A stretch of DNA of 40,294 nucleotides from Bacteroidales bacterium (GTDB lineage Bacteria > Bacteroidota > Bacteroidia > Bacteroidales > Muribaculaceae). Where the stretch lies: positions 1 through 40,294 of the forward strand of contig JAUNNJ010000016.1 of the NCBI GenBank assembly GCA_030531495.1. Direction: 5' to 3'. This document shows positions 3,133-33,327 of the stretch, piece by piece. A program made the translations under genes and the position numbers. The number at the start of each line of letters is the position of its first letter. Position 1 is the first letter of the stretch. The notes under the pieces are model-generated. The model saw nothing but the letters and a program-made list of their open reading frames with translations, did no database searches and had not been told where the DNA came from.

Positions 3133-4813
3133 TTATCCTAACACGATGTTGATGAGGGCGGTGACATCGGAAACATCAATGGAGCCGCTACCATCAAGGT
3201 CGCCAACTTCCAAAGACACACCAGCGCCATCAAGAACAGCATTGATAAGTGTTGTAACATCGGTTACATCGACCACACCGTCTTTATTGATATCGCCACG
3301 GAGCGCTGGAGTTGAATTATCCAACTTATATATGAGGAAGTTTTGCTGAGCAGTTGAATAGCAGCTGAAAATCTTACTTGAAGTATTATACTTCAAAATG
3401 TTACGAGTATATGAGCCTTGGAAAGTAACAATAGCTTCACCATTAGAGAATTCGATTTTTGCGCTTGCATTTTCATCAATAGCTGCTTTAGAACGCAAAT
3501 AGTTGCTTGACGAAGAGGCTGCACACAAATAGCCAGCGGAAGTGTTGAAAGCGAAAGTGCCCTCGATAGCTCCAGCTTCAAGAGTGACAACTTTCACTGT
3601 GTCGGAAGCCACAGTCACTTCGCTCTTATCAGCATTGAATGCGAAGCCTACAGTGGCAGTCATACGGTTGTTGGCAGTTTGAGCACTCATCAAGTTGGTG
3701 TGATTGGTGTTTGAGAACACCAGCTTGTCGCCAACTTTCAAATCATCGGTAGAGGTTACCAAAACATACTTGTCGCCCTTGATTGTTGGGTCGGTAACGC
3801 TTACTTACAGAGCAAGCAGCGCTTGATGCTTCATAATAGTCGTTACCTGCAAAAACTGCAGAGATAACTGTTGAACCAGCACCTACGAAGTGAACAACGC
3901 CGGTGTTTTCGTCTACTGTAGCCACTTTTTGAGAAGTGCTTGAGAAGGTGGCAACTGCACCATCAAGGCTTACTGTAGCTGTGAGAGTGACATCTGGGTC
4001 ACCAACCTTACCTTCAAGTTGGGTTTCTGAAATGGTGGTGGTTGTCTTAATCTTGTTGATTTGGAGGGTGTAGCTTGCTGTAGAAGCTTGGTATTCATCA
4101 TTGCCTGCGTAAGAAGCAGAGATGGTGGTGGTACCAGGTTTCAAGAATGTAACAATACCTGCAGTTGAAACTTCAGCCACAGCATTGTCGCTACTTGCGT
4201 AAGTGATTGTTGCACCAGCAGGACCGCCAGTCAGAGTTGCTGGAGTCTCGAGAGTGGTTTGCTCAGGATTCCATGTGCGAGTGATTTTCTTACCATCGTA
4301 AGTTTCACCAAAGCTCATAGAAGTTTCCTTCTTTGAAGGAGTTGTGCCTTCGGTGTAATACACAGTAATGCTCGTGAAATAGCAAGCATTGCTTGGTGTC
4401 TTCAAAGAGAAGTAAGTGTAATTGTTGCCTGAAAAATCAAATTCCATGGTAGCCGCAGTATTAGGCGACTTTACTTGTGTTGTAGGTTTAGCAGAAGTGC
4501 CACCATACATGGTGATTGCACGGCTAGTACCAGTCTGTTCGACCACAATCTTGGTGATTTTGCCAGGAATGGCATCCACATTATAAAAAGAGTTGGTAAT
4601 CGACTTTTTTGCTTGGATGCTCCCTGTATTTTCACCGGAGCCTTTTATCCATTGGGTATACCCGAACTTGATACCACCAACTGTAAACTCGCCATCACCA
4701 TAGGATGAACTAATGCCAGAACTCTCCTGATCGATGACGATGCTCTTATCCTCTGCAAACGACACACCCGCTGCCAGGATAGTTAACATCAAAGAAATAA
4801 ATATTTTCTTCAT
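3133..4813 (-). pseudogene. Secreted Ig-like repeat protein with C-terminal dockerin, frameshifted
   Basis: Reads as one gene in two frames. The first part (4813 down to about 3805) has a signal peptide (MKKIFISLMLTILAAGVSFA), a jelly-roll-like region to about residue 150, and two bacterial Ig-like (Big_2 type) repeats, with TTTISASYAGNDEYQAS and its counterpart TVISAVFAGNDYYEAS. The second part (from about 3803) continues with a domain of unknown type and a dockerin-like pair of calcium-loop repeats (GDINKDGVVDVTDVTTLI and GDLDGSGSIDVSDVTALI). The frames meet where TTAC is duplicated (3801-3808). Removing one copy restores a continuous frame reading ...CSVSVTDPTIKGD. It could be a true pseudogene, a reversible frameshift, or an assembly error. 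The original product would be an exported, probably surface-located adhesin or carbohydrate-associated protein. Confidence 0.75.
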
Positions 4814-4924
4814 GATTATTAATTGTTTTTATGTTTATGAATATAGTTGTTTTGTAAGTAATCCGTATCCTTGTTACTGTAGCAATCAATCTGCTGCAAT
4901 AACGAAAAAAAATCGTTAGGTGTG

Positions 4925-22029: not shown

Positions 22030-22234
22030 AGGATATTATTTGAAATAACGCCCTTACGCAACCCACTTTTCGCCTCAATCCCGAAATTTAAAAAAAATCT
22101 AAAAAATCCCACCACCTGTTTGCAATCAGAATATTGCATTTTTAAGCAAACCATCCAATACGAGAATTTGTTAAAAATACCAAACACAAATCGTAATTTT
22201 ATGCATAACACACCAAAATGTGGCGCAATATGTA

Positions 22235-22242
22235 TAATTTTG
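22235..22242 (+). promoter_or_regulatory. -7 box (TAATTTTG) upstream of RNA element copy 1 and LRR protein 1
   Basis: TAATTTTG fits TAnnTTTG. Starting near 22247 would give a leader of about 335 bases that contains the whole RNA element before the LRR start codon. Confidence 0.5.
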
Positions 22243-22308
22243 TTGATGAAATCCATTTATCAGTCCAAACTGGTGGAATAGACAGGATTTATCAACGACA
22301 TAATATTC

Positions 22309-22565
22309 AGAAAGCGTTTCGCTTTTTCCTTTTAAAGAAAATCGCCAAATTTTTCTATGTACGAAGGACAAAAGCAGCAAGAAATGCTTGCGTTTGTATA
22401 TAACACTCTTTAGGATGGGGCAAATATATAGGGCGTGAGGGTGAGCTGTGAGTTTCGTACAGGGCGTTTGGCGATGCCTCTTTAAAGATGAACAGTGACA
22501 TTTCCTCACGCTTTCGTTGTATTATAACCAAAATAAAGGAGTGTTTCAAGGGGGGGATGAGAAGC
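22309..22565 (+). ncRNA. Candidate structured leader RNA, copy 1
   Basis: First of three related elements. It opens with an AAAGCGTTTCGCTTT hairpin (22311-22325), then TCCTT able to pair with AAGGA. ATCGCCAA (22341-22348) pairs with TTGGCGAT (22468-22475). A variable middle follows, then a block ATGCC...ATTTCCTCACGCTTT and a last hairpin GTTTC (22543-22547) with GAAGC (22561-22565) around a G-rich loop. The LRR start codon is 16 bases further on. The middle arm differs strongly in sequence from the other copies. Confidence 0.6.
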
Positions 22566-22581
22566 ACGTTGATCAGGAAAA

Positions 22582-25500
22582 ATGAAAAAACTATTGACAG
22601 CAGCACTGCTTGCTTTCCTATCTCTGGGAATGGCGCATGCCGACGTAGTGCTCAATGACGAAAACTTCCCCGACCCCAATTTCAGAGCATTCATCACACA
22701 GCGAACCGGTGTCGCCGAAGGCGGAACACTCACCAACGCCATCATCGCAAACCAAACAGACTGGTACAGCAACGGGCAAAACCTTGTAAACAAATCACTG
22801 ACCAACTTAAAAGGCATTGAGCAATTTACATCTCTACGCTATCTGAATTGCAGCAAGAATCAACTCACTTCACTGGATTTGAGCAACAATAAAGCGCTGA
22901 AGTATCTTTCGTGCTACAACAACAAACTTGAAACTCTTAACATCAACGGATGTTCCGCCATCACCTATTTGTATTGTTACGCAAATCAGTTAACATCACT
23001 GGATGTCTCAACGAACACAGCACTGCTACAACTATATTGCTACACCAACAAATTGACTTCTATAAACATAAGCAACAATCTGAATCTTACCATTTTCCAA
23101 TGCGGAAATAACCAAATCAAATCACTTGACGTGACAAAAAACACCGCATTAACGAATTTGAACTGCCGAGACAATAAAATTTCCTCACTCGACGTGAGCA
23201 ACAATACAGCATTAACCACTCTTGTGTTTTATGGAAATTTACTCACTTCAATAGATGTAAGCAAAAACACAAAATTGACGACGCTGTCTTGCTACAGCAA
23301 TCAACTGACTTCACTCGATGTAACAAAAAATACTGCACTGACCACACTTTATTGTCGAGACAACAAACTCACATCAATTGATGTGACGAAAAACACAGCA
23401 CTAACCTCATTTTATTGCAACGAAAATCAACTCTCCACACTGGATGTAAGCAAAAACACTGCATTAACCATATTACAATGCACAGCCAATCACCTTACCT
23501 CTCTGGATGTGAGTAAAAATACAGCTCTGACAGAGTTAAACTGTCGAGGTAACAAAATCACATCTCTGGATACGCGTAACAATGCAGCATTGTCAACATT
23601 GGCATGCTATGATAATCAACTTGCATCAATCGATGTAAGTAAGAATACAAACTTGAAAATACTCACTTGCGACAATAACCTACTCACATCACTGGATATA
23701 AGCAATAATACGAAACTGGATACTTTAACATGCTATTACAACCAACTCACATCACTGGATGTGAGCAAGAACACTTCGCTGGTTTTGCTATATTGCCAAT
23801 TCAATCACCTTACCTCGTTGGACGTAAGTAAAAACAAAGAAATTAAATACTTAACTTTCGACTCAAATGACATCAGTTCTATAGATTTGAGCAACAACAC
23901 AAAACTTGAGATACTAAAAACCAACCATAACAAACTCCCAAAATTGGATTTAAGAAACAATCCACTCATCACAAGTCTCACGGCCGCACACAACATGCTG
24001 ACCGATGTGGATGTAACAGGGTTGACACAACTAACACACTTCTGCGTCAGCTTTAACAAGGGCTTAAAAGAAATCAAGGGTTTGGAGACTTGCACCTCCT
24101 TGAATGAACTTTTTGTGAACGACGACAACTTTTACGCCCTCGATGTAAGCAACAACACAAAACTGAAAACACTGCACACACAAAACAACCATCTCATACA
24201 AGTGGATGCGACACCTCTCACAATTGACTGCATAATTCCTTACGACATTACTTATTACCATAACGACACCTACGATGGCTATGGATGGGGCGGAACAAAC
24301 CAAACACGCACCATGCCCGCAACTCGTGAAAATGTGGATGCCGACGGCAGTGGTGTGAAGGAGTGGTTTGTGGTGAAAATGCCTGTTGACGCCGCAGTGC
24401 CCGACGGGCTCGGAAAGAAGGAAACATTTGTGAACGATGCATCAAAAAAACTCAATGTGGTGGAGATTGAAACACAGGGCGTGTACTCGAAGGTAATCGA
24501 TGGTGTCACTTATTTCTACCTCCCTATTGACAATGCTCCAGAAAAGTTCTCGTTCACCTACAACATCAATCATCTTGCAAACAAAAACTATGGAATGTTT
24601 GCAGACCCTAACGCTAACGGAAGTCGAAGATACATAGGATATGACGGAGAAACGATGGATGCGCTATTGCAAGTAATCATCACTCCAAGATATCCTTCTG
24701 CCACATTCTGGATGGATGGCGAATATCGCTCCACTTTCATCCCAGAGCAAAAATTGAACACCTACAAGAACACTATCGCACTCGATGGCGTGTTTGACCA
24801 AGGCGACAAGACCTACGATGGCAACACATACACCATCACTCGCAAAGCCGCGAACAGCGACGACGAAACAACTGTGGCTACAGTGGCGCTCCAACTCGTA
24901 GAGCCAGCAGAAGGCGATGCCTACTACACCTATACCGTCGCTTACCCTAACGGTTCATGGGCTGCGAACACTAACCAGGAGAACCGCTGGGACAATGTGC
25001 CTACTGTAAATAATGGTGTCGTGACCGATGGCATCAAAGTGTGCGACTATTTCGCCGCATCTACAACCGACGGTGGCGACAAGGCTGGCACCTACACCTA
25101 CAGCGTGAAGGAAGACCATTTTGCCAACAACTTCGTGGTGCCAGTGTATGCCGCGACCACAACAGTGACTCTCGTGACCGACCATAGCGCTTGGAAAGCC
25201 GACCAAAATGTGGTGGGCTATACCTTCGACGAAATCAACAGCGAAGACGAAGACCACCACGTGCTCAACCTGCCTAAGGGCGTGGCTGCCGAACACAGCG
25301 AATTCTACAACACCACATTCAAGTACCACTCGCTCTACCGCTATGGCAACATCGTGGAAAAATTCATCATCGGACGAAACGAAACGCTCTCGTTACCATA
25401 CTACCTTGAATTCGGCGAACAAGGCGAGGCAAGCAATGAGCTCCGCTACGTGTATGGGATGCATGTCATCTCTCCCTACGGCGAAAACTCTTACGGTACC

Positions 25501-26157
25501 AACGAAGTGGTGGTTCCTAAGGCTATCATCACGATAGAATCCACCGACCTCGCCAAGTCGGAATACACATTCCATGAAGGCAGCCGCTACTATTCATGCT
25601 TGCTCAACCTTGGGTTTATGCAGAGCGTGGATGCTTTCACCACCCAGTCGGGCGGCTACCGTGTGTGGCGCAACTGCGACAGCGAGGATGAGGAACACAC
25701 TGAGCTATTAGGCCGTGCCAACGACTACATGTTCTACAAGAACATGGACCTCACAAGCCATGCGGCGGAAGTGAAGGAAGTAGGAAGTCAGCAGTTGAGC
25801 GTGACCAACGCATCAGGCACCGTGTTCCCTTACACCAGCGGCACATTTGGCTCATCGGCAACTACTCCGAAAGCCTCTTTCCTTGCACGCGCCTACTACA
25901 AGGCCTCTCCGAAATCCAGCGCTGCGAACATGAAGAAAGCACCAGCAACCACCTACTACTATGTGGCTGAAGCCCTCGTTGACGTGGAATGGAACAATGT
26001 GGTGACAGGTGTGAGCGATGTGGCAGACAAACAGGTGAGCAGCATTCGCTACTACGATCTCGCCGGCCACAGCAGCACAAAGCCATTCTGCGGCGTGAAC
26101 ATCGTGGTCACTAAATACACCGACGGCAGCAGCGTGTCGACAAAGATACTGAGATAA
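22582..26157 (+). CDS. Giant secreted LRR protein 1 (internalin/BspA-like)
   Basis: 1191 residues with a signal peptide (MKKLLTAALLAFLSLGMAHA). Residues about 75-540 contain about 22 LRRs of 21 residues with consensus LTxLxCxxNxLTSLDVSKNT; about 16 keep the Cys. The DNA is accordingly a run of imperfect 63-bp repeats. From about 560 to 1140 it is strand-rich and holds Ig-like or jelly-roll domains of no clear family. The last 50 residues (YYDLAGHSSTKPFCGVNIVV to KILR) form a C-terminal domain shared with LRR protein 2 and reminiscent of Bacteroidota secretion or sorting tails. It is probably surface-exposed and binds host or microbial partners. Expression is likely governed by the long leader containing the RNA element. 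Confidence 0.85.
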   Translation: MKKLLTAALLAFLSLGMAHADVVLNDENFPDPNFRAFITQRTGVAEGGTLTNAIIANQTDWYSNGQNLVNKSLTNLKGIEQFTSLRYLNCSKNQLTSLDLSNNKALKYLSCYNNKLETLNINGCSAITYLYCYANQLTSLDVSTNTALLQLYCYTNKLTSINISNNLNLTIFQCGNNQIKSLDVTKNTALTNLNCRDNKISSLDVSNNTALTTLVFYGNLLTSIDVSKNTKLTTLSCYSNQLTSLDVTKNTALTTLYCRDNKLTSIDVTKNTALTSFYCNENQLSTLDVSKNTALTILQCTANHLTSLDVSKNTALTELNCRGNKITSLDTRNNAALSTLACYDNQLASIDVSKNTNLKILTCDNNLLTSLDISNNTKLDTLTCYYNQLTSLDVSKNTSLVLLYCQFNHLTSLDVSKNKEIKYLTFDSNDISSIDLSNNTKLEILKTNHNKLPKLDLRNNPLITSLTAAHNMLTDVDVTGLTQLTHFCVSFNKGLKEIKGLETCTSLNELFVNDDNFYALDVSNNTKLKTLHTQNNHLIQVDATPLTIDCIIPYDITYYHNDTYDGYGWGGTNQTRTMPATRENVDADGSGVKEWFVVKMPVDAAVPDGLGKKETFVNDASKKLNVVEIETQGVYSKVIDGVTYFYLPIDNAPEKFSFTYNINHLANKNYGMFADPNANGSRRYIGYDGETMDALLQVIITPRYPSATFWMDGEYRSTFIPEQKLNTYKNTIALDGVFDQGDKTYDGNTYTITRKAANSDDETTVATVALQLVEPAEGDAYYTYTVAYPNGSWAANTNQENRWDNVPTVNNGVVTDGIKVCDYFAASTTDGGDKAGTYTYSVKEDHFANNFVVPVYAATTTVTLVTDHSAWKADQNVVGYTFDEINSEDEDHHVLNLPKGVAAEHSEFYNTTFKYHSLYRYGNIVEKFIIGRNETLSLPYYLEFGEQGEASNELRYVYGMHVISPYGENSYGTNEVVVPKAIITIESTDLAKSEYTFHEGSRYYSCLLNLGFMQSVDAFTTQSGGYRVWRNCDSEDEEHTELLGRANDYMFYKNMDLTSHAAEVKEVGSQQLSVTNASGTVFPYTSGTFGSSATTPKASFLARAYYKASPKSSAANMKKAPATTYYYVAEALVDVEWNNVVTGVSDVADKQVSSIRYYDLAGHSSTKPFCGVNIVVTKYTDGSSVSTKILR
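22840..23920 (+). repeat. 63-bp coding repeats of LRR protein 1
   Basis: About 17 consecutive imperfect 63-bp units encode the best-conserved LRRs. Adjacent units can be very alike (for example around 23290-23400), giving substrate for recombination that changes repeat number. Confidence 0.75.
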
Positions 26158-26183
26158 TTAATTTTATCTGTTTTTTCCTGACG

Positions 26184-26222
26184 AGAGTGGTGGCTCAAGC
26201 ATTGAGTCGCCACTCTTATTTT
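26184..26222 (+). terminator. Terminator of LRR protein 1
   Basis: AGAGTGGTGGCTCAA (26184-26198) pairs along all 15 positions (two G-U) with 26202-26216 around a 3-base loop, followed by TATTTTTGG. Confidence 0.85.
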
Positions 26223-26364
26223 TGGATTTACCCACCTCCTACGACAATGAAGCATCACAAGTCAGGTGCGTTGTTGCGCATCATTACGCAAGTAAGTAAA
26301 TCGTTTGCATACTTTTTTTTTACCTTATTTTTTCGAAAAAATATCACGCAGTCGTAATTTTTAG

Positions 26365-26372
26365 TAACTTTG
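26365..26372 (+). promoter_or_regulatory. -7 box (TAACTTTG) upstream of RNA element copy 2 and LRR protein 2
   Basis: TAACTTTG implies a start near 26378 and a leader of about 360 bases. Upstream, AGTAAATCGTTTGCAT (26295-26310 region) is shared with the sequence ahead of element copy 3. Confidence 0.55.
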
Positions 26373-26432
26373 GGTGCGAAAATGGCTTGTTTCTGATTAT
26401 TTTAGAACAAGTGTTTTTTCACAAACATGTTA

Positions 26433-26696
26433 GTGAAAGCGTTTCGCTTTTTATCCTTTTAAAGAAAATCGCCAATTTTTCAACGTACGAAGGACGAAAA
26501 GTAGCAAGAATCGCTCTCGCGGACTTGTGCATACTATTGCTATTTTGGTGTAGGGTGGCAAGCGACGAGAGCAAGCTGCATAGAAAAATATCCCAAAGCG
26601 TTTGGCGATGCCGATAAAAGATGATGGCGGCATTTCCTCACGCTTTTGCTTTTTATAATAGGAATATAGTTTTGTTTCAAAGGGGGAATGAGAAAC
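26433..26696 (+). ncRNA. Candidate structured leader RNA, copy 2
   Basis: Same order as copy 1: GAAAGCGTTTCGCTTTTT, TCCTT/AAGGA, ATCGCCAA (26468-26475) with TTGGCGAT (26602-26609). The variable arm is closed by GCTCTCG (26513-26519) with CGAGAGC (26566-26572). A hairpin ATGCC/GGCAT follows, then CACGCTTTTGCTTTTT, and a last hairpin GTTTC (26674-26678) with GAAAC (26692-26696). It lies in the leader of LRR protein 2. Confidence 0.65.
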
Positions 26697-26738
26697 ATCA
26701 ACCAGAAAGACTTCGGCCTTTCCTATAAAACATCACAA

Positions 26739-29700
26739 ATGTTTAGGAAAATTTTTACTCTATTTGTTGCGCTATCGCTATTTGCGCAACTGAAAGCTCA
26801 AGAAGTATTGATTAATCCACAGACATTCCCCGATGATAATTTCAGGAATTTCGTGGCAACCAAACTCACACATGCCAACCCCGACTTCTTCACAGAAGAA
26901 GAGGCTGCGGCTATCGACACGATTCTGTGTACCAAATCTGAAATCGGTTCGCTCCAGGGTGTTGAGAATTTCAAAAATCTCCACTATCTTGCATGCGACT
27001 CCAATCAAATTGAATCGCTCGACCTTTCGGCCAACAAGAAGCTCTACGCGCTGTTCGCCACCTACAACCAGCTCACATCAATCAATATCACGGGCGCCGA
27101 TGCTTTGCGACAGATGCGCGTGGACCACAACCAGTTGGCTGGTCAGTTCGTGATTCCTCACAACAAATTCACTTGGTTTTGCGTGGGCGACAACCAAATC
27201 ACCCATTTCGTGAACCTTGATGGCGAACGTGTAGACTTGAACTATCTAAAGAGTGCCACAATGGTGTACGCCTTCACCAACCCTCTGGACGAGAGCTACA
27301 AGGATTTGAATCTGAGCGGAATGACCAAGTTGAAATACATCTATGTGCAAAACTTGGGGCTTCGCTCTGTTAACTTAGAAGGCGATAAAGAAATCTACAT
27401 TCTTCGATGCGAACAAAACGAAATCTCGAATCTGGATGTTTCAAAATTCCCTAACTTGACCCACTTCTACTGCAACAACAACCAGCTTTCACAACTTAAC
27501 GTGAGCGACAACCTAAAATTGCGCCAACTGATTTGTAACAACAACGCTGGCATCACTCACCTCGATGTGACAAAGAACACGCAATTGATTAAGCTCTACG
27601 CCAACGATTGCGCCCTTGAAGGCGAGATTACGCTCAACAGTAAGAAGTTCGAGGACATTCGCCTGCAGAACAACAATCTTACTGCCATCCACGGTCTTAC
27701 TGGTGCATCAGAAGAAGCAGAAGGTTCGCAATTTTGGGTGTATGCCAGCAACAATAATTTCACCAATATTGATGTATCAAACAACCCCAAGTTGACACGA
27801 CTATTCGTGCAAAAAAACAAAATTTCAAGCATCAACATCGAAGGTTCAAAGGCTAATCTGGAATGCCTCTATTATGGTGCTAACCAAATGACTGAAATTG
27901 TACCAGTGACGGATTGCCCTAAAATGACGCAACTCTCTTGCGGTGACAATAAATTTGTGGGCGACGACCTCACTTACGATGTGAGCAACTGCCCAAATCT
28001 GACGATAATCTCCGCAGTTAACGACAATCTTACCCATATTGATTTGACCCACAACCCCTTGCTGAAAACAATCAACTTGGCTAAAAACGATATCACTTCG
28101 TTGGATATTAGCAAAAATAAATATATTGAAACACTGAACATTTATCAAAACAAGTTGACAGCACTCGATGTAAGTGCACAGGATTCGCTCATACAGCTCA
28201 GTGCCTACAGCAACTCAATTAGCAGCATCGATCTTCAAAACAACAAAAAATTGAAGATTCTTTCACTTGGTAGCAATAACATTTCCGAACTCAAAATTTC
28301 ACACCTTGAGGATCTTGAAATACTCAACTTTTACAACAACGAAATCACCGAACTTGATTTAAGCAATAACCACAAACTCAAAACAATCAAAATCCAAAAC
28401 AACCACCTTTCTTCTATCGACATATCAGCATGCGACTCTCTGAAATCATGGCAAGCTTTGAATCAAAAAATATATGTTACCGCATATCCTGTGACAGATG
28501 GTAATGGCAATGAGATTTGGGCTGTGAACATGTCGCCAGTGTTTAAAGACGCACAAGCATTTGAAAACTTCACACTCTCTGGGCAATCGGCTACGAATTT
28601 CAAGAAAAGCTACAACTACGATGGCGCCAGCGGACATGAAGGCATGTACTACGTGTTCCCAAGAAGCAAGACCTACAAAACAATGCCTTTTGAAACGACA
28701 GCCAACAAGGACGACAAAAAGCTCACCGGCTGGCTCTACATTGCCAACGGTAATTCCGACTTCAACATCGCCCTCGAACACAACTCAAGAGTTTCGGCAT
28801 ATAAAGAACAAGGTTATGGATGGAGAACAAATCGCGGATATGAAAACTGCCTCAAAAATATCCTGACGCTCACCCTCAACACTGCAAATAAAGAATCACT
28901 TGCAGGCACCACACGCACTGTCACCTTGCGTGATGTGAACAAGGACGAAACAGAACCAGAGACAATTGCAACCATATCGTTTGACGCCGACGGTTCGGGA
29001 CACTACACCATCAACTACAATCCAGATTCTAACATATCATACCCTAACCACCGCTACGACGACGAAGCATTACCAACAGAGGGCAATGTGGAAGATGGAA
29101 TCAAACTCGTACACTACACCACATGCAGCGCATGGTATTCAGAGCAACCATACGAAACTTTCGGCTATACCATTAAAGAAGGATATGAAAACGAAGTAAA
29201 TTACGATGTTTTCTTTGCGAGGTTAAACGGTGCAGCATATCATTGTTTGACTAATGATGAGGTAAAGGACGACAATGATGGAAGCCACGAATTGACGACC
29301 AATAAATTTGAGGTGGTGACACCAAACGAAAATGCAGAACAATGGTCACTTATTATTATCCATGAGGAAGTGGAAGAAATCACTCCTGAAGAAGATGAAA
29401 CCACCGTTTTCCCTTATATCTTCAACCCATCAGATATTAAAGATGTAACGACTGACGGAAGAAGAGAGTTCTGTGGAAAAATGAAAGTTGGAAACAACTA
29501 CTATGCCGCTGAAGGTCAATGGGAAAATCACTATAGCGACGCCGAGTTCCCCTCACTCTCACTCACTACCGACGAAGTGGGTACAAGTGAAGCTACATGG
29601 AAAGACGGTGACCGCACCGACCGCACTGCATTTAAAGCAATCGCTTCTTTCCACACCAATGAAACTCCATACTACTATCGCTTATGGCGCGTCAAAGATG

Positions 29701-30164
29701 GCGTAAAGGTTCTACTCAACAACGAGCCTGAAATCACTGGCGAAGGATGGGGAACAACCTATTGCAACATTGCAGACGAATATCCAGAACAAGATGCAAG
29801 CGTAACAGATATCTATTTGGACAACAAGCCCAGTGAAGACAACCCTGTCACCGTCACCTACATTGCTCGAGGCTATTTCCATTTGAATGGAGGCCCATAC
29901 GCACCAGCATTATTTGCGAATAAAGCAAACGGCTATGATAACTACGAAGAGAGATACTTCGTTCGCGAATACGCTGTTCAGGTGACTTACGACGGCAACA
30001 ACATCGTGACTGGCGTGACCGATGTCAACTGTTACAAGAGTGTGACCTCTGTGCTGTATTACGACCTTGCTGGCCACTGCAGCAAAAAGCCTTTTGAAGG
30101 TGTGAACATTGAGGTTACCCGATTCAGCGACGGTAGCACTGTGTCAGCGAAAATATTGAAATAA
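26739..30164 (+). CDS. Giant secreted LRR protein 2 (internalin/BspA-like)
   Basis: 1141 residues from the ATG at 26739, which opens a signal peptide (MFRKIFTLFVALSLFAQLKAQ). The in-frame ATG at 26688 lies in the conserved hairpin of the RNA element and is not favoured. Residues about 60-600 contain irregular LRRs (for example ILNFYNNEITELDLSNNHKL), more divergent than in LRR protein 1 and mostly without the Cys. A strand-rich region follows. The end (YYDLAGHCSKKPFEGVNIEV to KILK) matches the C-terminal domain of LRR protein 1. Probably exported to the surface by the same route. The two genes are a diverged tandem pair that kept the same leader element and the same tail. Confidence 0.85.
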   Translation: MFRKIFTLFVALSLFAQLKAQEVLINPQTFPDDNFRNFVATKLTHANPDFFTEEEAAAIDTILCTKSEIGSLQGVENFKNLHYLACDSNQIESLDLSANKKLYALFATYNQLTSINITGADALRQMRVDHNQLAGQFVIPHNKFTWFCVGDNQITHFVNLDGERVDLNYLKSATMVYAFTNPLDESYKDLNLSGMTKLKYIYVQNLGLRSVNLEGDKEIYILRCEQNEISNLDVSKFPNLTHFYCNNNQLSQLNVSDNLKLRQLICNNNAGITHLDVTKNTQLIKLYANDCALEGEITLNSKKFEDIRLQNNNLTAIHGLTGASEEAEGSQFWVYASNNNFTNIDVSNNPKLTRLFVQKNKISSINIEGSKANLECLYYGANQMTEIVPVTDCPKMTQLSCGDNKFVGDDLTYDVSNCPNLTIISAVNDNLTHIDLTHNPLLKTINLAKNDITSLDISKNKYIETLNIYQNKLTALDVSAQDSLIQLSAYSNSISSIDLQNNKKLKILSLGSNNISELKISHLEDLEILNFYNNEITELDLSNNHKLKTIKIQNNHLSSIDISACDSLKSWQALNQKIYVTAYPVTDGNGNEIWAVNMSPVFKDAQAFENFTLSGQSATNFKKSYNYDGASGHEGMYYVFPRSKTYKTMPFETTANKDDKKLTGWLYIANGNSDFNIALEHNSRVSAYKEQGYGWRTNRGYENCLKNILTLTLNTANKESLAGTTRTVTLRDVNKDETEPETIATISFDADGSGHYTINYNPDSNISYPNHRYDDEALPTEGNVEDGIKLVHYTTCSAWYSEQPYETFGYTIKEGYENEVNYDVFFARLNGAAYHCLTNDEVKDDNDGSHELTTNKFEVVTPNENAEQWSLIIIHEEVEEITPEEDETTVFPYIFNPSDIKDVTTDGRREFCGKMKVGNNYYAAEGQWENHYSDAEFPSLSLTTDEVGTSEATWKDGDRTDRTAFKAIASFHTNETPYYYRLWRVKDGVKVLLNNEPEITGEGWGTTYCNIADEYPEQDASVTDIYLDNKPSEDNPVTVTYIARGYFHLNGGPYAPALFANKANGYDNYEERYFVREYAVQVTYDGNNIVTGVTDVNCYKSVTSVLYYDLAGHCSKKPFEGVNIEVTRFSDGSTVSAKILK

Positions 30165-30422
30165 TCAATCGTTTTTAGTAGTAGTTTATAAACAAAAAAA
30201 CTTAGTATTTTAGTTTTTTTCATGACAAAGGAGTGGAGACTGTGAAGTTCCCACTCTTTTTTTCATTAATTATGAAGTGAAATCTTTAAATATAAAGCAT
30301 TTACACATATAATTCCAGCCACATTACAAATTAGTAAATCGTTTGCATGAATTTTTTGTGCATTTTTTAGGCAGGAAATGTGATGAAACAAGTTTTTTAC
30401 AAACATTTTCAACAACATGATA
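30165..30422 (+). other. Intergenic stretch after LRR protein 2
   Basis: Contains the terminator at 30231-30263, then AT-rich sequence leading to RNA element copy 3. No gene was seen. Confidence 0.5.
30231..30263 (+). terminator. Terminator of LRR protein 2
   Basis: GAGTGG (30231-30236) pairs with CCACTC (30251-30256), extended inside by GACT/AGTT, and is followed by seven T. Confidence 0.75.
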
Positions 30423-30671
30423 GTGAAAGCGTTTCGCTTTTTATCCTTTAAAGAAAATCGCCAATTATTTTTCACGTGCGAAGGACAAAAAGTAGTAAGT
30501 AGCTCTTATGCCGACTCCATCCTCAAAGCAGGGTGGAAAGGCATAAGGGTGTGTGAACTCAAAGATATATCCCAAGCGTTTGGCGATGCCTCTTTAAAGA
30601 TGAACAGTGGCATTTCCTCACGCTTTTTTTATGTCCATAGTATGTAACGTTTCGATGGAGGGATGAGAAAC
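30423..30671 (+). ncRNA. Candidate structured RNA, copy 3 (no large gene behind)
   Basis: Same order of parts: GAAAGCGTTTCGCTTTTT, TCCTT/AAGGA, ATCGCCAA (30457-30464) with TTGGCGAT (30580-30587). The variable arm is closed by CTTATGCC (30505-30512) with GGCATAAG (30540-30547), and inside it CCATCC pairs with GGGTGG. Then ATGCC/GGCAT, AAGCG (30574-30578) with CGCTT (30621-30625) followed by a T run to 30630, and a last hairpin GTTTC (30649-30653) with GAAAC (30667-30671). No LRR gene follows. Confidence 0.65.
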
Positions 30672-30676
30672 AAAAA

Positions 30677-30799
30677 ATGAACACAAAAAAAGACTATAAT
30701 TCAACAATGCGTCAACACAAAAGAGAAGGGGAAACAGCCAATCCCCGAATTCAACATAAAAAACAACAACAGTATCGCTGTTGTAAAAATTCTTTGTAA
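30677..30799 (+). CDS. Possible 40-residue peptide gene after RNA element copy 3
   Basis: Starts at the position where the LRR genes start relative to the element (6 bases after it). The product is basic and Gln/Asn/Lys-rich (MNTKKDYNSTMRQHKREGE...) with no signal peptide. It could be a decayed remnant of a third LRR gene, a real small protein or chance. A terminator at 30893 closes the transcript. Confidence 0.2.
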   Translation: MNTKKDYNSTMRQHKREGETANPRIQHKKQQQYRCCKNSL

Positions 30800-31059: not shown

Positions 31060-33327
31060 TTAGTGGAGGATGAGGTTGATGAGGGTGGTGACGTCGCTCA
31101 CGTCGACTGTGCCGTTGCCGTCGATGTCGGCCAATTGAATATCAGTTGGTGCACTGCCTAAAATCATGTTGATAAGGGTGGTGACGTCGCTCACATCGAC
31201 CTGTCCGTCTTTGTTTACATCGCCTTTAAGAAAGGGGTCTTTCAAGTCTACTACGAGGGTGGCGATTGAGCGTGCCGGAATCACCATGCGGTCGGTGGCG
31301 GTGTGTGTGGCCGAAAGTTTCAGGTTGGAGGTGCTGCTGGTCACATAACGGCTGATTTTGTCCACTTCTTTGTTGATGCCACGCAGACGGAGGCTGGTGT
31401 AACGGCGCACACCTGAAGTGTTCACATACACTATCACGAGCTTGTCGTTCTCTGGCGAGATGTAAGCCGATGCAAGGATATTGTTCATTTCGGCGCCGCC
31501 TTCGAGCTGCACGCGCTTGTAGCCTGGGCGGATAAAGAGGCTGTAGTTGCCGAGTGCCCAAAGTGTTTTCTGTGCTTCTACGGTGCCTCCGTTTTCGAGA
31601 CTCGCATAATCGTCGCCATTGCTTGGGCGAAGGCGCACGAGCATGAAGCGGTCTTTCTGTCCGTATTGTTCGCGGTCGAATGCTGTCCAGAAATTCCAGG
31701 CAGGCATATCGCCGAATGCCAAATCGCAGTGAATCACCTTGCCCATAAAGAGGGCTATATCCATGTATGTGGCCTTGTCGTAGCTCGACGGGAAGCCGGT
31801 TTCGGTCGATGGCTCGGCATCGAGCAAGCTCCATTCGGTCTGCATCACCTCTAAGCCTTTGTCTTTGGCTGCATCGCGTGCCTTTTCGCGAACGTGGCGT
31901 AGGTCGCTGTTGGTGCTGAAAGTCCAATAACTGTGGGCTGCCACCGCAGGATACACATTCGAGAGGCCAGAAACATCGTTGCTGCCGCCGCCGAAGAATG
32001 CGCTAATTTGGTTAGTGCCACGAGAATAGGAAGAGCCGCTATAAAGTTTGTCGAGCGACGATGCCTCAGGAATCATAATCTTAGTGGTAAGACCCTGGTT
32101 GACGAACTCGGTGTTGAGCGCACGGGTCATACCAGCCACGTCGCCATTGGTCCATGGCGAGCCTTCTTGTCCGTTTCTCCAATCGAACTGTGGCTCGTTG
32201 ACTGGCGACACGAACGAAATATTGTAGCCTTCGTCCACAAAGTGTTTTGTGGTGGTGGCGAGGAATTTTGCAAACTTGGGGAAATTGCTGCTAGCGAGGT
32301 TGCACGACACAAACAGGCTGTTGTTGGCGTTCGCCTTGCCATTTTTTGTGTAATAGATTGGCGCAGAGTTGCTAAAGAGTGTAAAGTGCTCCACACCATA
32401 AGCCTTTGCCTTCTGCATAAAATATTGCTGCCCTGCCTGACGGGACCAGTCGTAGGTACCGTCGGCTGTGAGGAAGCAGTCGGCGCGTCGAGTTTCGTCC
32501 TCAATATTACTGTTGCTGCCTTGCGATGCACTGCCTGCGCCCAAATTCACGCGCCAGTTCGAAAGCCCGATACCGGTGGCAGCGCCAGAGGCGTCGATAG
32601 TGCGGCTAAAAAGCATTTTCGCAGCCTTTTCTCGCTCTGTGTTTGAGAAATACTTGCCCACATAATCGGCCATCCAGCAGTCGCTGGCGCCGAAATGGTG
32701 TATGGTCTGATAAGTGACAGAAGGGTCGACAGCGACCACTGCATCTGGAATATCAAGGTCGGAGAGGGTCACATCGTCGATGTAATAGCCGATTTCTCCC
32801 CAACCGGTGCGAGGATTATCCCAATTACAGCTATACACGAAATAAATTTCGTTGATGGTCTGTCCGTTGAACTTTTCGGCCAAGTCGATTACTACACGTT
32901 CCCATTGACCTGTTGATGCAAGTTTTTCCAGATACACCTGATTGGCCTCTTCGTAGCCATTGATGCCCACACGGAAATCTTTTGGCTGCTCGGTGCGAAG
33001 CATAAGAAACGTGAGATAGCGATGGTCGTAGTCCACCGCCACTGGCTGCGTCAGCTTCAGGCTCACCATATTGCCATACCAGTCGGCATTGGCCACATTC
33101 ACCGCGCCAAGGCATTTTGCAGAAGAATTGATACCATCGCGCAGCGGATTGAGCATGACGGAGGGTGGGGTAGAGAAGAGGGATGAGTTGGTGCTTGCCA
33201 AACTGATAGTGGAGCCTTGCTCTACACCATTTTCAAAATTTGCCACATTCATTTGAGCGCTTGCGCACACATTCCACGAAAGCGCCACTGCTGCGGCAAA
33301 CGAAAATATTCTAGAATTTTTGTTCAT
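31060..33327 (-). CDS. Secreted glycoside hydrolase family 30-type enzyme with C-terminal dockerin
   Basis: 755 residues with a signal peptide (MNKNSRIFSFAAAVALSWNVCASA). Residues about 25-195 form a beta-sandwich that may bind carbohydrate (ending GEIGYYIDDVTLSDLDI). Residues about 205-660 form a GH30-like barrel plus side domain. The acid/base Glu is in PVNEPQFDW (about 378) and the nucleophile Glu in MQTEWSLL (about 498). The start QTIHHFGASDCWM is also typical. The likely substrate is a beta-1,6-galactan or xylan side chain. The last 65 residues hold two dockerin-like loops (GDVNKDGQVDVSDVTTLI and DIDGNGTVDVSDVTTLI). No cohesin is seen in the window. It is transcribed alone from a near-consensus promoter. 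Confidence 0.85.
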   Translation of the reverse strand: MNKNSRIFSFAAAVALSWNVCASAQMNVANFENGVEQGSTISLASTNSSLFSTPPSVMLNPLRDGINSSAKCLGAVNVANADWYGNMVSLKLTQPVAVDYDHRYLTFLMLRTEQPKDFRVGINGYEEANQVYLEKLASTGQWERVVIDLAEKFNGQTINEIYFVYSCNWDNPRTGWGEIGYYIDDVTLSDLDIPDAVVAVDPSVTYQTIHHFGASDCWMADYVGKYFSNTEREKAAKMLFSRTIDASGAATGIGLSNWRVNLGAGSASQGSNSNIEDETRRADCFLTADGTYDWSRQAGQQYFMQKAKAYGVEHFTLFSNSAPIYYTKNGKANANNSLFVSCNLASSNFPKFAKFLATTTKHFVDEGYNISFVSPVNEPQFDWRNGQEGSPWTNGDVAGMTRALNTEFVNQGLTTKIMIPEASSLDKLYSGSSYSRGTNQISAFFGGGSNDVSGLSNVYPAVAAHSYWTFSTNSDLRHVREKARDAAKDKGLEVMQTEWSLLDAEPSTETGFPSSYDKATYMDIALFMGKVIHCDLAFGDMPAWNFWTAFDREQYGQKDRFMLVRLRPSNGDDYASLENGGTVEAQKTLWALGNYSLFIRPGYKRVQLEGGAEMNNILASAYISPENDKLVIVYVNTSGVRRYTSLRLRGINKEVDKISRYVTSSTSNLKLSATHTATDRMVIPARSIATLVVDLKDPFLKGDVNKDGQVDVSDVTTLINMILGSAPTDIQLADIDGNGTVDVSDVTTLINLILH

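Follow-up and report, generated by a model that had tools for sequence, protein, structure and literature searches.

Pseudoknotted RNA elements of Bacteroidales with a terminator-like end: a candidate family of riboswitch-like leaders

The window considered here is the whole stretch of 40,294 nucleotides (nt) of contig JAUNNJ010000016.1 from a Bacteroidales bacterium of the Muribaculaceae (assembly GCA_030531495.1), which carries on its forward strand three copies of a structured RNA element, the first two of them standing ahead of long genes for leucine-rich repeat (LRR) proteins. An earlier note on this DNA had taken the copies for a regulatory leader outside the named families. The conserved fold of the element, its placement between a promoter-like box and a gene, and its terminator-like end argue that it is probably a cis-regulatory leader, and it matched no family of Rfam 15. 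More specifically, judging from sequence, we give a probability of roughly 57% to the reading that it is an orphan riboswitch-like attenuator, in which a terminator-like stem is interlocked with a core of multiple pseudoknots.

Copy 1 is the best conserved of the three (the copies are numbered 1 to 3, and L-numbers denote loci carrying the element or its sequence pattern), and every helix of the model is kept in it. Its -7 box, TATAATTTTG, lies at 22233-22242 and fits, at 22235-22242, the pattern TAnnTTTG, which we take to be the -7 consensus. Hairpin P0, with complementary arms TTGATGAAATCC and GGATTTATCAA (22243-22295), would stand first among the structures of the transcript; behind it come a GACATA motif (22297-22302) and the core (22312-22513), which scores 99.8 bits (E 5.1e-25) with the covariance model R1 presented below; the E-values of window copies refer to a search of 673 kb. 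Inside the core, the 5' strand of helix Py, AAGCGTTT (22312-22319), has its partner AAATGCTT at 22382-22389, as judged from the sequence and a permutation test, and that of Px, GCTTTTTCC (22321-22329), pairs by permutation energies with GGACAAAAGC (22366-22375), this being the TCCTT/AAGGA pairing of the earlier note. P2a, a helix of variable sequence revealed by covariation, joins TTTAAAGA (22331-22338) to TCTTTAAA (22479-22486) and extends P2b, which is formed by ATCGCCAA (22341-22348) and TTGGCGAT (22468-22475) and had been noticed before. In P3, which has two significantly covarying pairs, TGTACGAA (22358-22365) finds its partner inside TTTCGTACA (22453-22461); in PT, assigned by a permutation test, GGGCGTGAGG (22431-22440) pairs with CCTCACGCT (22504-22512). 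The 3' strand of PT and the U-rich tract behind it (CCTCACGCTTTCG, 22504-22516) make up the terminator-like end, which is weak in this copy. CATTTCC (22499-22505), the 5' strand of helix PK3, can pair, by permutation energies, with GGGGATG (22553-22559) in the G-rich loop of hairpin P9 (22543-22565), and its CC is common with PT. P9, recognised by its arms and by PK3, stands directly before the start codon at 22582 of an open reading frame (ORF) for an LRR protein of 1191 amino acids (aa) with a signal peptide-like N-terminus (22582-26157; LRR_4, E 3e-35).

In copy 2, a TAnnTTTG box, TAACTTTG, is found at 26365-26372, the core at 26437-26645 (48.3 bits, E 7.2e-11), its middle arm (the 3' strand of P3 and the 5' strand of PT) being diverged, and the P9 hairpin with its G-rich loop at 26674-26696. 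The ORF behind it (26688-30164; LRR_4, E 8.6e-22) again encodes an LRR protein, whose start is likelier at 26739, where the signal peptide-like MFRKIFTLF... begins, than at 26688, which falls within P9. The two -7 boxes and the two long LRR genes pointed out in the earlier note are real features of the sequence. Copy 3 has its core at 30427-30625 (64.3 bits, E 2.9e-15), with intact 5' and 3' blocks and a diverged middle arm, and a P9 hairpin with a G-rich loop at 30649-30671; no TAnnTTTG box was matched upstream of it, and its downstream ORF within 200 nt has 40 aa only. A 42-nt block with the core AGTAAATCGTTTGCAT is 79% identical between 26289-26330, upstream of copy 2, and 30327-30368, upstream of copy 3, and was not reported by the repeat finder for copy 1; it could be a site for a regulator or mark the border of a duplicated stretch. 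One duplication may have given rise to copies 2 and 3, with copy 3 now a relic. A reverse-strand gene for a GH30-family glycosidase that carries a type I dockerin at its C-terminus (31060-33327; Glyco_hydr_30_2, E 1.2e-101; Dockerin_1, E 1.4e-10) converges on copy 3.

All the named sequence blocks were found at their positions and in identical order in the three copies, as the earlier note had it. A repeat-finding tool run on the window reported direct repeats at 22464-22514 and 30576-30626 (98% identity over 51 nt) and a 5' block present in the three copies; taken with their flanks, the copies show a mean column identity of 75%. Folded as single sequences, copies 1 and 3 do better than shuffles (z -3.72 and -3.29), and copy 2 reaches z -1.27, with 22 of 200 shuffles equally good. 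A minus-strand ORF runs across copy 1 (22171-22509); since compensatory changes and indels dominate, it may be taken for a chance occurrence, and a coding explanation was set aside.

Comparison of DNA sequences revealed more copies in the genome of the window, and also in 5 of 60 other genomes, all built of constant blocks with varying sequence in between. A scan with an exact two-anchor pattern gave at least 117 stretches in genome_contigs and 25 in viral contigs. The requirement of CACGC downstream reduced 145 pattern matches to 38 for a first look, and a further 5' motif, applied to all loci then in hand, left 42 matches, 39 of them distinct. R1 was built from 18 elements (alignment A3), none of which came from the genome of the window, and it recovers all three window copies; it was later searched, without those motif filters, against the window and 153 of 159 loci, the remaining six being stretches of the window. 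Searches of more than 40 genomes, among them the genus, order and phylum samples, used stricter filters, by which weak matches are lost.

The genome of the window, which is counted in the genus, order and phylum samples alike, has seven R1 matches at E <= 0.1. The window contains three of them, and contigs C29, C41, C26 and C22 have one each, that on C22 at only E 3.2e-4. An additional diverged copy on contig C13 (L017) was recognised by DNA similarity, with a weak R1 match (E 0.032). In the same genus, R1 matched 65 of 101 genomes (E <= 1e-3), including 33 of the 48 of good quality. The search of Bacteroidales that the earlier note had called for gave matches in 85 of 344 genomes and 55 of 193 genera (E <= 1e-4), and in a sample of the phylum 5 of 296 genomes were matched, those besides the window's own belonging to the same class, outside the order. 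The number of matches per genome ranges from 0 to 17; at E <= 1e-3 there are four in Bacteroides fragilis Q1F2, four in Bacteroides caecigallinarum An496, three in Xylanibacter rodentium and 17 in Parabacteroides sp. An277. As a control, the anchor-bearing loci of genome_contigs were scored at E <= 1e-5: R1 matched 56 of 60 from Bacteroidota and the single one from Lentisphaerota and, among the matches listed, two of four titled Bacillota and none of 52 others. It also matched 4 of the 25 loci on viral contigs (L150, L151, L153 and L159), and none of five whole genomes of other phyla. A metagenome-assembled genome (MAG) of Lentisphaerae gave two weak matches (31.4 and 26.9 bits), which on inspection retain much of the layout, including the PT stem with its U-tract, in different letters.

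Single loci add some variety to this picture. In L153, a contig from IMG/VR, the element (2754-2943) has its own versions of Py and PT and lies ahead of a gene for a prepilin-like protein (MKRKRNFTLIELLVV..); the viral-labelled contig may be cellular, perhaps from Lentisphaerota. L219 and L220, from other orders of Bacteroidia, carry a short version of the element; the small proteins encoded behind it, about 70 aa long, look similar by eye (MEAATYFPNFEYPASEVSKYI.. and MTSADQFPDFDYTAGQLSKFL..). Two tandem elements about 300 nt apart are present in L095 of Bacteroides caecigallinarum (4146-4364 and 4661-4884), and a gene of at least 60 aa, of the DUF6140 type, is found behind the second only; this is perhaps a double switch. 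Finally, L021, L031 and L042, all from one MAG (bin_9), are copies with near-identical 5' flanks, two of which precede similar membrane-anchored proteins, which suggests that leader and gene spread together.

For the analysis of structure, 101 matches, from 97 sources picked because they had matched, were aligned to R1; L160, L165, L171 and L172 were excluded as duplicates, L065 because its match is cut off, and L033 and L120 as weak. In this alignment 90.0% of the cells of the stored structure are paired. Doubly changed cells number 830, compared with 258.3±17.5 in shuffles (0 of 500 as high) and with 107-276 when the partners were slid. Because R1 had guided this alignment and the aligned sequences share ancestry, a tree-aware test was added, in which substitutions were re-placed column by column on the branches of a FastTree tree, and column pairs were scored by a G-test with average-product correction against 150 null alignments. 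By this in-house test, which is not R-scape, covariation in the wider alignment is significant: 10 of 20,301 column pairs pass E < 0.05, and all of them fall within the proposed structure, six in P2a, two in P3 and two in P5-7.

The strongest covariation thus belongs to P2a, the continuation of the ATCGCCAA/TTGGCGAT helix. P2b itself is near-invariant in most matches, partly through the search pattern, and it is silent in the tree-aware test. Inspection shows it altered on both strands in L219-L222, L236 and L249, and at one pair in L257, the replacements being CUUAGGAA/UUCCUAAG in L219 and L220, UCCGCCAA/UUGGCGGA in L222 and CUGGAC/GUCCAG in L236 and L249. Upstream of the core, the P0 segments of 89 elements are more stable than mononucleotide shuffles, at a mean z of -2.4, and [AG]ACATA occurs within 40 nt of the core in 51 of 100 elements and at -80 to -40 in none of 100. 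Two structures were discarded: the RNAalifold result on a first MAFFT alignment, which had 22 pairs and misaligned variable arms, and a helix of 5' TTTATC with 3' GATAAAC, attractive by eye in one family and found by inspection to have no covariation.

Five long-range helices, Px, P8, PT, Py and PK3, are absent from R1 and were tested by pairing the strand of each element with its own partner strand or with those of other elements, in one set of 91-100 elements with 40 permutations and in another of 58 elements less than 75% identical with 2000 permutations. Own and permuted energies were -8.70 and -6.18±0.19 kcal/mol for Px (99 elements), -8.02 and -6.94±0.15 for PK3 (n=100), -10.86 and -9.78±0.15 for PT (91-100 elements), and -10.98 and -7.92±0.26 for P8 (CCACUCCC/GGGAGUGG). 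In the set of 58, Py (5' AAGCGUUU with internal AAAACGCU) gave z -5.8 and PT (internal GCGUGGG with 3' CCCACGC) z -10.2, with 0 of 2000 permutations as good for either. The proposal that TCCTT/AAGGA forms a pseudoknot, interleaved with the ATCGCCAA/TTGGCGAT helix, gains support in the form of Px. Two hairpins of the earlier note read differently in our hands. The GCGTTTCGC block makes more sense as the 5' strand of Py, and the local hairpin AAAGCG-TTT-CGCTTT was rejected in favour of that assignment; the CACGCTTT block pairs instead with the internal GCGUGAGG strand, in PT, and then runs into the U-rich tract. The columns of Py and PT hold 26 doubly changed cells, compared with 6.1±2.2 in shuffles. 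Py is kept as AAGCAUUU/AAAUGCUU and PT as GUGCGGG/CCCGCAC in L030 and L051, and PT is kept as AGUGGGG/CCCCACU in L024.

Of the 97 elements for which 160 nt of upstream sequence could be read, 90 have a TAnnTTTG box there, compared with 12 of 97 on the reverse strand, and in 85 of 97 it falls within -80 to -31. Where 500 nt were available downstream, 74 of 94 elements are followed within 200 nt by the start of a same-strand ORF that encodes 100 aa or more, at a median distance of 65.5 nt; in the control, ORFs of this size reading away upstream were seen in 14 of 88. Between element and ATG there is no second -7 box in 82 of 84 cases, window copy 2 being one of the two exceptions. Of 100 elements, 86 have five or more T in the 8 nt after the core, compared with 11.6% of 2292 background windows, so that the element has what is expected of an intrinsic terminator or attenuator, a stable stem (PT) directly before a U-tract. 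PK3 and PT have bases in common in 63 of the 66 elements in which both are stable. Among 29 loci of the order search that lie outside the alignment, 26 have the -7 box, 27 an ORF of 40 aa or more, and 24 the U-tract, counted with the last two core bases. By its sequence context the element occupies a 5' leader, the usual place of a riboswitch, and like a riboswitch it has a conserved, structured core with covariation. The available part of PMC7366714 gives an average of 52 and a median of 32 nt for what we take to be 5' untranslated region (UTR) lengths in Bacteroides thetaiotaomicron, next to which the roughly 300 nt of this leader would be an exception.

The likeliest mechanism, attenuation, would be as follows. 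Each copy would be a leader RNA that acts in cis, about 300 nt long and part of a widespread family, with transcription beginning a few bases past the -7 box, so that the RNA would start with hairpin P0. The core is modelled as a rod, P2a-P2b-P3-P3b, both strands of which would be threaded by three long-range helices: Px and Py would tie the extreme 5' end to the interior of the rod, and PT the internal GCGUGGG strand to the last strand, CCCACGC. As PT is followed by the U-rich tract, a correctly folded core would close with a stem resembling a terminator, some 50-80 nt ahead of the start codon. RNA polymerase reading through would add a tail, whose G-rich strand (contained in P9 in the window copies) could pair with CAUCGUUCC to form PK3. 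Because PK3 and PT have three or four bases in common, they would compete, and PK3 might mark the readthrough state beside the start codon. A candidate signal, be it a ligand, an ion or a protein, could stabilise or destabilise the core, and by this shift the balance between a stop at the U-tract and readthrough into the gene.

Several results weigh against this reading. Px, Py, PT, P8 and PK3 have their support from permutation tests only, and the scores of such tests may be too high where sequences are related. In the tree-aware test, pairs of PT or Py taken one by one do not reach significance (E 27 or worse); by some measures, too, the Py and PT columns exceed their shuffles only moderately, with 14 of 500 shuffles attaining the observed number of doubly changed pairs. 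P8 overlaps the P7 hairpin and was left unplaced in the model. The strands of PT are 63 nt apart in copy 1, which is unusual for a terminator, and the middle arm is diverged in both other window copies. The U-tract had been counted in 93 of 100 elements when two core bases favoured by the model were included, a number which exceeds the one given above, and the looser rule of a 40-aa ORF, satisfied by 92 of 100 elements, is also satisfied in the control direction in 34 of 88. Among elements found by pattern, the anchors TCGCCAA and TTTGGCGATGCC are invariant by construction. In the phylum sample just 4 of the 295 other genomes were matched, at 39-45 bits, and two R1-matching MAGs are titled Lachnoclostridium and Paenibacillus (L062 and L070), titles that we suspect to be wrong. 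Tails before the start codon fold at -8.8 kcal/mol, compared with -7.8 in shuffles, and -2 kcal/mol is reached by 71 of 73 tails and 94% of shuffled ones. Because tails fold hardly better than shuffles, the final hairpin with a G-rich loop, P9, which is plain in all window copies and whose loop can pair there with CATTTCC as described, is weak as a general feature.

Rival pairings were found as well: in the 58-element test P4 reached z -7.7 and P1 z -2.9. A pairing that had not been proposed, of the 5' with a middle strand, gave z -2.8, and therefore values near -3 are no support. The closing helix P1 (5' AAGCGT with 3' ACGCTT), still contained in R1, stands at this level and was rejected; it is broken by sequence in L024, L030, L051, L110 and L133, where Py and PT hold. 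On the grounds of the z-scores and of the sequences of L030, L051 and L024, in which P1 is unable to form, we take the main fold to comprise Py and PT, and P4 may be an alternative state.

The genes led by the element are of many kinds. Family scans took 84 of 88 downstream ORFs, the doubtful L056, L086, L178 and L185 being left out, and 55 Pfam families were found in the 84 proteins. The most frequent are LRR_5 (13), LRR_8 (12), LRR_4 (8) and LRR_EndoS (8), followed by rarer ones such as Glug and PEGA (3 each), with CotH and DUF6140 among those seen twice. LRR proteins, lipoproteins and small helix-turn-helix (HTH)-like proteins are all among them. A crude rule finds a hydrophobic N-terminal stretch in 53 of 88 proteins, and a lipobox-like motif is present in 15 of 88; behind the B. 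fragilis copy at 5.12 Mb, the encoded protein is of the Poly_export/SLBB type. Eight small HTH-like proteins with the pattern MxHIGxxIK...IDTxLLxRI, mostly of 69-87 aa, stand behind the element in L020, L045, L048, L063, L072 (a 232-aa form), L079, L099 and L124, and the two of them that were searched had no Pfam match. This family may be a recurrent partner gene, and could help in finding the signal. The 84 proteins have no pathway in common, hence no ligand is suggested, which is a further point against a riboswitch; genes fitting one ligand are usual for riboswitches, if not obligatory. The lack of a common pathway would suit a general signal over feedback by a single metabolite. Diverse genes, many copies and a complex fold are reminiscent of orphan riboswitches.

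A bolder proposal, which we make tentatively and rate somewhat below even odds, is that the element is a new class of riboswitch, or a catalytic or otherwise signal-sensing RNA, for a general signal of Bacteroidales. With its terminator stem woven into a multiple pseudoknot, it would set a cell-surface programme of LRR adhesin-like proteins, lipoproteins, polysaccharide export and small DNA-binding proteins across the order, and related elements would occur in Lentisphaerota and in further orders of the class.

The diversity of the downstream genes could as well be expected if the leader did not sense a small molecule, but was bound by a protein or other macromolecule (an RNA chaperone, the ribosome, or an autoregulating gene product), or served as a stabilising or thermosensing 5' UTR; the conserved strand in the tail, near the start codon, could be accommodated in the same way. 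We consider this unlikely, at perhaps a third of the weight given to the attenuator. No single recurrent protein of an autoregulator type is encoded among the 25 of 55 Pfam families listed, and so many long-range helices would exceed the need of a stability hairpin or a thermometer.

Slightly less probable still is an independent gene for a trans-acting small RNA, whose own promoter and terminator would be the -7 box and PT with its U-tract, and for which the downstream gene would be incidental. In its favour, the core lies between a box resembling a promoter and an end resembling a terminator, neither copy 3 nor the first tandem element of L095 leads a gene of at least 60 aa, and the start codon is distant in L008 (195 nt) and L168 (170 nt). 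Against this stand the high proportion of same-strand ORFs of at least 100 aa, their tight spacing and the low control, the rarity of a second -7 box before the ATG, and PK3, by which the core is linked to a strand past the U-tract. A dispersed repeat or mobile element, intergenic by chance, is very improbable, for although copy numbers vary widely between genomes, L095 has tandem copies, and DNA-similarity matches occur in two plasmid records and one phage record, the copies within a genome are divergent, as seen in those of the window, and the fixed geometry from promoter to start codon is unlike random insertion.

The attenuator-like leader we favour has some wider significance. To our knowledge, few large and intricately folded bacterial RNAs are left without a library name, and several RNAs of this kind, once worked out, were ribozymes, metabolite sensors or large scaffolds. 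The element occurs in a quarter of the sampled Bacteroidales genomes, and culturable commensals among its carriers allow direct tests. It often precedes genes for surface proteins and probably helps to set their expression; should it be a sensor, its ligand would reveal a signal used by gut bacteria to alter their surface.

As to known RNAs, the window has no match to Rfam 15 at the gathering threshold, the best sub-threshold match in 22200-30720 being 22.0 bits where the cut-off is 58.7, and 16 other element loci gave matches to tRNA and signal recognition particle (SRP) RNA only. HEARO/OMEGA RNAs, group I and II introns and T-boxes, families which are presumably contained in the Rfam library, were likewise not matched in the window and the 16 loci, and the listing of 25 of the 55 Pfam families from the 84 downstream proteins contains no IscB, IsrB or TnpB nuclease. 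The element is apparently undescribed: literature searches gave no account of it, and it does not appear in the available parts of PMC8040213, PMC11109978, PMC2864571, PMC7366714, PMC10994844 and PMC6429828, although supplementary motif lists, other papers or preprints might contain it as an unnamed entry. PMC8040213 reports 3161 predicted structured RNAs from human microbiomes, some in Bacteroidetes; the Bacteroidetes examples in its available part are 40-132 bp long and lie near other genes, unlike the element, an unnamed fragment of which might be contained in the full list. The motif table in the available part of PMC2864571 includes Bacteroidales-1 (RF01693), Bacteroides-1 (RF01694), Bacteroid-trp (RF01692) and Flavo-1 (RF01705), which resemble the element in being structured RNAs of Bacteroidota, and differ from it in that none of them matches at the gathering threshold in the window or at the 16 loci. 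The comparison covers motifs with an Rfam number; Bacteroides-2 and GUCCY-hairpin, also motifs of Bacteroidota, stand without one in the available rows of that table.

Two groups of known regulators can also be compared with the element. Second-messenger riboswitches, such as those for cyclic di-GMP (c-di-GMP), are like it in that a genome may have several copies, placed before surface and regulatory genes of diverse kinds; the element has no Rfam match to them. Riboswitches with intrinsic-terminator platforms differ from the element in that its terminator-like stem is itself a helix of the pseudoknotted core and the set of genes is incoherent, and resemble it in the 5' leader position, the conserved core, the terminator-like stem with its U-tract and pairings that may compete.

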